Assembly: GCA_903928915.1 (NCBI GenBank) | Contig: CAIYSL010000079.1 | Location: 1-34,864, forward strand | Origin: an uncultured Syntrophobacterales bacterium | GTDB taxonomy: Bacteria > Desulfobacterota > Syntrophia > Syntrophales > UBA5619 | Length of the DNA: 34,864 nucleotides | Reading direction: 5' to 3' | Part shown: one piece after another, positions 1,498 to 23,070 of the stretch | Numbering within the stretch: the stretch's first letter is position 1 | How the letters are laid out: every line of letters begins with the position of its first letter | Translations under genes and position numbers: made by a program | The notes under the pieces: model-generated | The model's database searches: none | What the model was told of the DNA's origin: nothing | What the model saw: the letters and a program-made list of their open reading frames with translations, nothing else

Positions 1498-4400
1498 ATG
1501 AGACTCAAGAAACTGGAAATCAGCGGTTTCAAATCCTTCCAGGAGAAGGTCGTCCTCGACTTCTCCCCGGGAATCAGTGGCATCGTCGGCCCGAACGGCT
1601 GCGGCAAGAGCAACATCGCCGATGCGATCCGCTGGGTCATGGGGGAGCAGCGGGTCAAGACGCTCCGGGGGAAGAAGATGGACGACGTGATCTTCAACGG
1701 CTCCGAGGGGGCCGCCCCCGTCGGGATGGCCGAGGTCTCGATGATTCTCACGGCCGAGGGGCAGCAGTTCCCCGGCGCCTATGCGGAGTGCAACGAGATG
1801 ATGATCACCCGTCGCCTGTTCCGCGACGGCGAAAGCGAATACACGATCAACAAGATCCCCTGCCGCCTGCTGGACATCAAGGAATTCTTCATGGGGTCGG
1901 GGATCGGCGCCCGGACCTACTCGCTCGTGGAACAGAACAGCGTCGCCTCGCTGGTCGAGGCCAAGCCGGAGGAGCGGCGGCAGTTCATCGAGGAGGCCGC
2001 CGGCATCTCCAAGTACAAGAGCCGCAAGGAGTCGGCCGTCCGGAAGATGGAGGCGACCCAGCAGAACCTGCTGCGCCTCAACGACATCGTCCGGGAGGTC
2101 AAGTCGCAGCTCGGGTCGATCTCCCGCCAGGCGAAGAAGGCCGAGCAGTTCAAGGCCCTCCGGCAGGCGGTGAAGGAGGCGGAGCTGACCGTGGCGCTGC
2201 AGACCTACACCGACCTGTGCGAGAAGCGCAGCGCCCGCGAGGAGTCGAAGGCCGCCTGCAGGACCCGGGAGACCGAGGCCCGCACCCGCCTGCAGGGGCT
2301 CGAAGCCGCCCTGGAGGAGCTGAAGGCGCAGGTGCTCGAACAGGAGACCCTGATCGCGACCCTGCAGGAAAAGCTGTACGGGACGAGAAACGCCGTCAAC
2401 ATCAACGAACAGGGGATCGACTTCGCCCAACGGAAGACCGCCGACCTCGCCGGCCGGCGGGAGAAGGACCTCGCGGAATGCGAAGCCCTGAAGCAGCGGG
2501 AGGGGGCGACCGGAGAGGAAATCGAGACGCTCCGGACCGCCGCGGCCGATGCGGAGGCGGCCATCGCCTCGCTGCGCGCGGGGGTCGCGGAAGTGGCGAA
2601 GACCCTCGACGAGCTCCGGCAGATGGAGCGGACCAGCCGTCAGCAGCAGGAGGAGATGAAGGTCCGGTACATCGACATCGTCACCGAAAAGGCAAAACTC
2701 AAGAACACCGTGGCGGGCCTCACCCGGATGATCGACGACTTCGGCAAGCGGGAGGCGCGCGAGGAACGGGAGATCGAGGAGAACGGAAAGCGCTCGGCGG
2801 AGCTCGACCGCACCCTGGAGAACCTCCGCGCGGGACTCGTCGCCGAGGAGGCCGGGGTCGCGGAGCTCGGCAGCCGGCGGGAGGAGATCACCGACGAGCT
2901 CGAACGGACGCGCACCGATCTTGCCGAATGCGACGAGCGGATCGCCGCGCTCCGGGAGGAGAGCGGTCGGAAGGCGTCGCGGCTCGCCTCGCTGAAGGAA
3001 TTCGACGAGAGTTACGCCTGGTGCGGCGAAGGGATCAAGTCCCTGATGACCGGCGCCCGGGAGGCGGGCAGCCAGGAGCTCTCCCGGGAGCTGTTTCTGG
3101 GGCTCGTGGCCGACCACATCCGGGTGCCCCGCGAGTACGAAACAGCGGTCGAGGCGGTCCTCGGCGAAAAGCTCCAGTACGTGGTGGTGAAGAGCCAGGC
3201 CGACGGCGTCCGGGCGATCGATTACCTCAAGAGCGCCTCGCTCGGCCGCGGGAGCTTCGTCCCGCTCGAGGTCCGGCCCCACACCACCGCCGGGTGCGAC
3301 TTCGAGCACCTCCGCGAGGCGGTGCCGCTGCTCGAACGGATCACGGTGCACGAAGACTACCGACCGATCGTCACGGAGCTGCTGGGCGACGTCCTGCTCA
3401 TCCCCAGCCTCACAAACGGCATCTCGCTGTGGCAGCAGAACGGGTTCTGCGGCACCTTCGTCACCCCGGAGGGGGACATCATCAACCCCAACGGGATCCT
3501 CACCGGCGGCAGCAGCAGCGGCGGCGGCGAGAAGAGCCTGCTGCGCAACCGCCGGGAAATTGCCGAGCTGAGCGCGGAGGTCGAAACGCTGGCCGAGGAG
3601 CTCCGGGAGGCGCAGGAGGGGCGCAAGAGGACCGCCGGCCTGATCGCCCAGTGGGACGAAGAGCTCCTGCGGCTCCGCTCCCAGCTCCACCTGGCGGAAC
3701 TGCGGATCAACGGGATCCGGAAGGACCGGGAGCGGTTCGACGGGGAGATGCGCCAGGTCGCGGACCGGCTGAAGGTCCTGGAATTCAACCGGGACAATCT
3801 CCGGTCGGAGGCCGCCGAGGCGCGGCAGAGGTGCGCGAAGCACGAAGAGGAGATGAAGGCGCTGGAGGGGCGCGAGGCCAGCCTCAACCAGGAGATGGCC
3901 GCGGCCCAGCAGCGGTGGGAGGCGCTCCGCACCGAGCTGGAGGAACGCGAAGCCGGCCTCACCCAGCAGAAGATCCGGCTGGCCTCCCTCGAGGAAAAGC
4001 GCGAGGCCGATCTGAAGACCCTGGCCCGCCTGGAGGCCTCGCTCACCGACCACTCCCGCGAGATCGCGGCCCGCCTCGCCGACGCCGAGGCCTGCCAGCG
4101 GGAGGCGCAGACGCTCGCCGCCACGATCGCCGCCGACCAGGAGACGCTGAAGGGGCTGTACGCTGAATGCGAACAGGTCGAGACGGCCCTCGCGGAAAAG
4201 CGGGGCGCCCAGTCGGAACGGGAGATCCTGCTCCGGTCGCGGGAGACGGAGATCCGCGAGGCGAAGCGGGAACTCGAGGCCCTTCTCCAGGAGGGAAGCG
4301 AGGTCGAGCTGGCCTTCCGGGAGATCGCGATGCAGATCGACAACCTCCGGCAGAACATCCAGGAGAAGTACACGGCGGACCTGGGCCAGCTGATCGGGGA

Positions 4401-22188: not shown

Positions 22189-22434
22189 CTAGCCGATCAG
22201 CAGGGGCATCAGCAGGGGGAGGAAATACAGGAGGGAAACGACCACGGCGCCGATGCACGCCCCGTCGACCCAACGGGCGCAGACGCACCGTTCCACCCGG
22301 TCGTCCGATTCGATGAACCGGCGCACGCGCCGGAGCGGACCCCGTTGCGACGCGATTTTCCAGTGCGCCGACCGGGGCTGCCGGACGGCCCCGGAAGATG
22401 CTGCCCGTAACGGAACGGGTACGAAGATTCTCAT
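22189..22434 (-). CDS. Small protein with C-terminal membrane segment, downstream of LexA
   Basis: An 81-residue protein of no recognised family. The first 55 residues are basic and Arg-rich, with one CVCARW pair of cysteines. The last ~25 residues form one hydrophobic segment (IGAVVVSLLYFLPLLMPLLIG) that ends at the stop codon, a tail-anchor layout. ATG 22434 has GGAGG seven bases upstream, and this site lies right after the LexA stop codon with only 13 bases between the genes. The pair is thus almost surely one transcript, under the SOS-type operator of the repressor gene. Small membrane proteins under LexA control in other bacteria block division or depolarise the membrane (YneA, SidA, TisB), but similarity is only in size and layout. 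Confidence 0.62.
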   Translation of the reverse strand: MRIFVPVPLRAASSGAVRQPRSAHWKIASQRGPLRRVRRFIESDDRVERCVCARWVDGACIGAVVVSLLYFLPLLMPLLIG

Positions 22435-22447
22435 TTTCAACCCTCCT

Positions 22448-23035
22448 CTAGGGGTGATACTTCCGGATCACCGCGGTGACGACGCCCCCGAGCCGGAGCT
22501 CCGCCTTCGGTCTGATGACGGGATAGCGGGGATTCGCCGCCTCCAGGACCACCTGCTTCCCTTCCCGCCGGAAATACTTCATCGTCCACTCGCCGTCGAC
22601 CTCGGCCACCACGACGTCGCCGCTCTTGGGTTCCCGCCCCCGCTCGACGATGACCAGGTCTCCGGCCATGATCCCCTCGCCGATCATCGAATCGCCGCTG
22701 ACCTGCAGCAGGAACGAGGCCTCCGGCTTCGCCACCAGGTATTCATCCATCGAGATGATGTCGCAGAGGGCCTCCTCCTCGGGCGAGGGGAATCCGGCCT
22801 GGACCGACCCGACCAGCGGGATGGCGAAGGAGCGCTTCGTGAAGGTCAGATGCCCCTTCTCGTCCTTTTCGAGGACCCCGGCCTCCATGAGCTTGTTGAT
22901 CCAGAAATTGACCACGCTCTTCGAACCGACGCCGAGCAGGCCGACCATCTCGGCAAAGGAGGGCATGCGGCGGTTGTCCCGCAGGAAGGCGGCGATCAGT
23001 TTCTGGACCGATTGGACCGTGCGTTTTTCTTTCAT
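22448..23035 (-). CDS. lexA: LexA-family SOS repressor (S24 self-cleaving)
   Basis: The 195-residue protein has an N-terminal winged helix (MPSFAEMVGLLGVGSKSVVN) and a C-terminal S24 peptidase domain. The self-cleavage site is Ala80-Gly81 in VQAGFP, the catalytic serine is Ser116 in SGDSMIGEG and the lysine is Lys153 in WTMKYF. The spacing between these residues is nearly that of E. coli LexA. On DNA damage RecA filaments should trigger cleavage and free the SOS genes. The operator and promoter sit immediately before ATG 23035. UmuD or a phage-type repressor are alternatives, but the intact DNA-binding domain excludes UmuD and no phage genes are nearby. Confidence 0.88.
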   Translation of the reverse strand: MKEKRTVQSVQKLIAAFLRDNRRMPSFAEMVGLLGVGSKSVVNFWINKLMEAGVLEKDEKGHLTFTKRSFAIPLVGSVQAGFPSPEEEALCDIISMDEYLVAKPEASFLLQVSGDSMIGEGIMAGDLVIVERGREPKSGDVVVAEVDGEWTMKYFRREGKQVVLEAANPRYPVIRPKAELRLGGVVTAVIRKYHP

Positions 23036-23041
23036 GGCCCC

Positions 23042-23070
23042 CGTATATAGAACATTCGTTCTATTGTCAA
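23042..23070 (-). promoter_or_regulatory. Predicted promoter of the lexA-like gene
   Basis: On the minus strand TTGACA (23065-23070) and TATACG (23042-23047) are 17 bases apart. The whole spacer is occupied by the palindrome listed separately. Confidence 0.7.
23048..23063. promoter_or_regulatory. SOS box (LexA operator)
   Basis: TAGAACATTCGTTCTA is a palindrome with six-base arms and a four-base centre. On the minus strand its core is GAAC-GAAT-GTTC, which fits the GAAC-N4-GTTC operator known from Gram-positive LexA proteins. It fills the space between -35 and -10 of the repressor promoter, so binding would block RNA polymerase. Confidence 0.75.

Follow-up and report, generated by a model that had tools for sequence, protein, structure and literature searches.

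In Bacillus, Listeria, Staphylococcus, Corynebacterium and Mycobacterium, small lexA-linked proteins with one transmembrane (TM) helix and unrelated sequences act as SOS division inhibitors (PMC6851548). YneA of B. subtilis acts on FtsW via its TM helix (PMC13396833), and SidA and DidA of Caulobacter are small TM inhibitors that act on FtsW/FtsN (PMC4211646). Phages also carry genes that act on cell shape or division: expression of Mu kil turns E. coli cells spherical, and the kil genes of lambda and Rac block division (PMC3961180). Here we characterize a small gene situated immediately 3' of lexA in an uncultured Syntrophobacterales bacterium, within a window of 34,864 nucleotides (the whole stretch of DNA analysed; contig CAIYSL010000079.1). 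A preliminary description, made from the letters of the window, had proposed that it could be an SOS effector of a new family. We obtained no family name from Pfam, NCBIfam, PHROGs, PADLOC or PDB sequences, where one or two members gave weak matches at most, so the novelty of the family stands with respect to these libraries. We found no literature linking lexA, SOS and Syntrophus.

The lexA locus of the window

The LexA protein encoded in the window (Table 1) scores 122.2 bits against the NCBIfam lexA model, above the cut-off of 110.95, and contains a Peptidase_S24 match in Pfam (E 7e-28). Its N-terminus obtains 11.9 bits with Pfam LexA_DNA_bind (cut-off 23.7), the full-length alignment with TIGR00498 covering residues 8-193. 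In agreement with the preliminary description, the cleavage and catalytic residues are intact, with Ala80-Gly81 as the cleavage site and a Ser-Lys dyad made of Ser116, located in GDSM, and Lys153. The palindrome reported in the lexA promoter was also found where it had been placed. The full 16-bp pattern of this box occurs three times in the 4.34-Mb genome of the organism, 5' of lexA and 5' of two Y-family polymerase genes, and the arm pattern occurs five times; the reversed controls yielded 0 occurrences for both.

The small ORF likewise has the traits first attributed to it. Its 81 codons begin 13 bases past the stop of lexA and are preceded by a GGAGG of their own, and the encoded protein has a single hydrophobic segment at its C-terminal end, with the hydropathy maximum within the final 20 residues. 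A start at an in-frame TTG two codons 5' of the ATG is possible but less likely. No terminator-like site was detected in the 13-base gap. A separate terminator scan found none in the gap and none 3' of the small ORF either, which makes that scan uninformative.

Table 1. Coordinates of the lexA locus features within the window
Feature	Position	Strand	Details
lexA, SOS repressor (S24 peptidase)	22448-23035	-	ATG at 23035, 195 aa; Ala80-Gly81, Ser116, Lys153
lexA promoter	23042-23070	-	TTGACA 23070-23065, 17-bp spacer, TATACG 23047-23042; read directly
LexA-type box TAGAACATTCGTTCTA	23048-23063	.	Perfect palindrome within the lexA promoter, nearly all of the 17-bp spacer
Small ORF, 81 aa	22189-22434	-	ATG; variable N-terminal ~32 aa, helix RRVRRFIE, SDDRVE motif region, C-terminal transmembrane helix
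Gap, lexA stop to small ORF start	22435-22447	-	13 bases, holds GGAGG ribosome-binding site

A conserved protein family behind lexA

Used as a single query, the window protein already retrieved partners just 3' of lexA in related genomes. We built a profile (A1) from 21 family members, all of them host sequences, and searched it in 155 genomes assigned to the order Syntrophales and in 395 from the phylum, a sample mostly composed of metagenome-assembled genomes (MAGs). Matches occurred in 81 of the 155 Syntrophales genomes, across more than 20 genera, with named loci in Syntrophus, Smithellaceae and Syntrophaceae MAGs. Outside Syntrophales there were none in the 395-genome phylum sample, its six positives all belonging to the order, and no small ORF was seen behind the lexA relatives of Nitrospirota or Omnitrophota. 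Comparison of coordinates with a lexA search in the same genomes showed that 71 of the 102 family matches, from 70 genomes, lie at most 1.5 kb from lexA, all of them 3' and co-directional. The conservation of the ORF downstream of lexA in relatives, which the preliminary description had put forward as a test, is thus clear. Nearly half of the Syntrophales genomes have no detectable copy, so the protein is not essential to the SOS response there.

For sequence features, 60 lexA-linked loci were re-extracted from the DNA. Their products have a median length of 77 amino acids (range 46-85), mostly with an ATG and a good ribosome-binding site, and the median distance from lexA is 46 bases. The substitution ratio, suggested at the outset as a way to recognize neutrality, indicates constraint: over 17 independent pairs, pN/pS was 0.39 in frame versus 1.02 and 1.16 for the shifted frames, a reduction seen in frame only, from which we conclude that the small protein is under purifying selection. 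Conservation next to lexA in 70 genomes together with the in-frame constraint rules out a chance ORF.

The members share a characteristic layout, with ~32 variable residues, a short basic helix (RF-RxFIE), a turn of the form S/T-D-W-D-E and a long C-terminal hydrophobic helix. The juxtamembrane motif is well conserved (Trp 98%, Asp 78-80%, Glu 73%). In all 60 copies, a single strong hydrophobic segment stops no more than 6 residues short of the C-terminus, and its N side is always the richer in Lys/Arg; hydropathy and charge bias thus predict a tail-anchored protein with a cytoplasmic N-terminal part. An AF2 model (disordered 1-32, helix 33-42, helix 48-80) agrees weakly with this anatomy, its mean pLDDT of 64 being too weak for a fold search.

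The copy of the window is peculiar. Its codon 46 (22297-22299, minus strand) encodes Arg, whereas Trp is found in 98% of copies, and it reads D-D-R-V-E where the family consensus is S/T-D-W-D-E, with the reading frame, the ribosome-binding site and the TM helix all intact. In a related, degenerate copy (G002:C83), the corresponding codon is a TAG stop. The window's copy, devoid of this Trp, is an atypical member and may be drifting. The loss of a near-invariant residue here and the stop in G002 could be taken as signs that the open frame behind lexA is neutral or has no function, but the spread over genera, the consistent length and ribosome-binding sites, and the difference in pN/pS between frames refute this for the family, making it an extremely improbable explanation.

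LexA-type boxes, additional copies and a version in Mu-like phages

The layout seen in the window, TTGACA-TAGAACN4GTTCTA-TAT, was found with slight variations 5' of lexA in 56 of the 60 re-extracted loci; the remaining four are truncated by contig ends, contain N runs or have a shortened lexA. No second box exists between lexA and the small ORF in these 60 loci. Three copies without lexA keep a box of their own (G120:C31, G121:C66 and G119:C77), and in the former two dinB follows 3' of the small ORF. In G119:C77 (locus ~2780-3170), lexA has suffered an internal deletion that fused its start to its last ~13 codons, with the SOS-box promoter and the small ORF retained. No other lexA was found in G119 at 1e-40, so that the small protein may be constitutive there or under another repressor. 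Since the box recurs in three different arrangements, SOS control of the family appears likely, and comparative genomics strongly supports the SOS link anticipated for the window. LexA would bind to the box, and the small ORF would be co-transcribed with lexA.

The original idea that the protein is produced only when LexA is cleaved was nevertheless too strong, because a lexA operon under autoregulation is expressed at a basal level, and because the genome of the window also encodes a paralogue without box (G000:C103). This paralogue keeps the motif and follows a gene for a receiver-only response regulator, as does another one in G001:C126. A second class of paralogues (G121:C196, G119:C72 and G048:C58) exhibits a different conserved promoter, TTGCACTATATATTGTA...TATGATA followed, ahead of the ribosome-binding site, by a palindrome similar to CACAATATATTGT, which points to another regulator for the same protein.

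Elsewhere in the order, boxes are mainly located 5' of lexA/umuD-like and Y-family polymerase genes. Both G023:C1 and G008:C18 have a second SOS-box locus, in which a Y-family polymerase gene comes after a gene for a LexA-like protein that is apparently devoid of most of its DNA-binding domain and thus UmuD-like. Directly 5' of a gene that, judged by eye, resembles IS91-type transposases (MSFPTAVYRPRSPQSSDYY...; G021:C53:573 and G015:C2:3661), this SOS box occurs again together with TTGAC, suggesting LexA control of transposition.

Profile A1, although containing host sequences only, also recovered phage homologues, namely 50-aa proteins reduced to the helix, the Trp turn and the TM helix. A comparison of A1 with another profile, A2, was not counted as evidence, since two host sequences were present in A2. 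In Mu-like prophages, a B-like transposition gene precedes this core, either immediately or with one ORF in between. The surrounding genes resemble those for the transposase and B (PHROGs 310 and 296); further downstream there are matches to GemA and Mor, as well as a Gam-like gene that falls just below its cut-off. Viral contigs of IMG/VR, searched with single proteins, contain the core in the same gene order; INPHARED (phages) and PLSDB (plasmids) yielded no credible match to it. In phage Mu (AF083977), the slot after B is occupied by kil (Mu_5), whose product is also annotated as control of immunity. Homology to Mu Kil was rejected (hhalign probability 0.1%) and, given this lack of sequence similarity, the parallel with the phage copies is positional only.

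Proposed role and comparison with known systems

We propose, with about even confidence, that proteins of this family restrain division or envelope growth as part of the SOS response, being produced together with LexA and switched off once LexA recovers. The small ORF would be the second gene of a lexA operon and encode a tail-anchored inner-membrane protein. Upon DNA damage, RecA-stimulated cleavage of LexA would free the box in the shared promoter, leading to the joint synthesis of LexA and the small protein. The C-terminal helix would then insert into the membrane while the N-terminal part, which is positively charged, would stay in the cytoplasm. The short helix, the Trp-Asp-Glu turn and the TM helix would contact a partner in the membrane, most probably part of the machinery for division or cell-wall growth. 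Division would be held back until LexA re-accumulates. In this model, the computations show that the gene is real, linked to lexA and controlled by the box, and that it has phage homologues in a defined position, whereas we infer the co-transcription, the topology, the divisome target and the timing. In Mu-like phages of these hosts, the stripped-down version, as an early gene after B, would stop host division during lytic growth.

Several observations make a division or envelope brake the most likely role: the linkage to lexA and to LexA-type boxes, the purifying selection, the single TM helix of every copy, the phage core in the slot of kil, the lexA-linked inhibitors of other bacteria, the existence of SidA and DidA, and the absence of SulA. 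Indeed, SulA (PF03846) was detected in none of 61 genomes of the order, with a positive E. coli control, and P0001 showed no SulA match. As SulA is missing from these 61 relatives and the boxes otherwise mainly precede lexA/umuD-like and polymerase genes, the SOS division inhibitor would be otherwise unaccounted for. Against this reading, the layout is opposite to that of the known lexA-linked inhibitors, the Kil parallel concerns position, and some paralogues lack a LexA-type box.

Other roles can be envisaged. The protein might be an SOS-controlled modulator or membrane-tethered adaptor of LexA, RecA or a translesion polymerase, affecting their turnover or localisation instead of division. 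The constant proximity of lexA, joined by dinB in several genomes, fits this possibility, and a conserved cytoplasmic acidic/Trp motif beside the membrane suggests protein binding. We nonetheless regard it as unlikely because the early phage copies reside in an operon without lexA or dinB, some paralogues follow a response regulator, and G119 preserves the promoter and small ORF in spite of its deleted lexA and the lack of any other at 1e-40. The host might instead have captured a phage-related function, or the phages a host function, for use in phage-host conflict (for instance lysogeny control or superinfection); the induction of prophages by SOS would then account for the coupling. The homologous 50-aa core after or near B in Mu-like phages and prophages would agree with such a role, as would the annotation of Mu Kil as control of immunity, but host copies are far commoner, accompany lexA across many families within the order and keep their SOS boxes, and the PADLOC models gave no match, so that we find this origin improbable too. 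Nor do we find it probable, and here our doubt is slightly greater, that the family represents an SOS toxin of the TisB type, which would make the membrane permeable or depolarise it and so favour dormancy. SOS control, small size and a single hydrophobic helix with conserved central residues would suit a toxin of this kind, yet conservation peaks in the soluble juxtamembrane motif and not in an amphipathic pore-like helix, and a good Shine-Dalgarno of its own and adjacency to lexA are unlike tightly silenced toxins.

The division-brake proposal can be extended, more tentatively, to homologous roles in hosts and phages: the host protein would be an SOS checkpoint effector pausing division or envelope growth, and the phage one an early kil-like protein arresting the host as lytic growth begins. 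If this is true, one protein family serves bacterial checkpoint and phage alike. The Syntrophales, largely uncultured syntrophs where SulA is absent, would gain a candidate DNA-damage checkpoint with a clear regulon signature. Because annotation passes over them and their sequences change quickly, small SOS membrane effectors are difficult to detect; in this case, the minimal 50-residue unit and the near-invariant Trp open the way to direct functional tests in laboratory E. coli.

Compared with YneA, ChiZ, SosA and DivS, the Syntrophales family has in common the adjacency to lexA, a LexA-type box, a small protein with one TM helix and sequence divergence between lineages. However, the genes of those inhibitors are divergent from lexA, whereas the Syntrophales gene is downstream and co-directional; they have an N-terminal TM helix and an extracytoplasmic C-terminus, whereas the TM helix is C-terminal in our family and its soluble part is predicted to be cytoplasmic. 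YneA and ChiZ also contain LysM, unlike the Syntrophales family, for which neither LysM nor any other credible Pfam/NCBIfam match was found in 27 members. SidA and DidA are similarly small, single-TM and induced by DNA damage (SidA under LexA control), with no sequence relation to the family in the searches run. The resemblance to SulA lies in the role of SOS-induced division inhibitor, proposed for the Syntrophales family, but SulA is a soluble FtsZ binder. Neighbouring lexA and sulA genes exist in pseudomonads. The phage copies share with Mu Kil the slot after the transposition gene B and before gam, but they have a TM helix and Mu Kil has no clear one. TisB-type toxins are also SOS-induced, small and hydrophobic; they are very short, mostly hydrophobic amphipathic peptides under antisense RNA control, in contrast with a family of 77-aa median length endowed with a conserved soluble motif and without sequence match to them. 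The kind of system to which the family belongs, a lexA-linked small SOS membrane effector, is therefore known. The family sequence and its tail-anchored layout appear to be new with respect to the known inhibitors, and, judging from these tools, the core common to the host family and Mu-like phages has not been described before.
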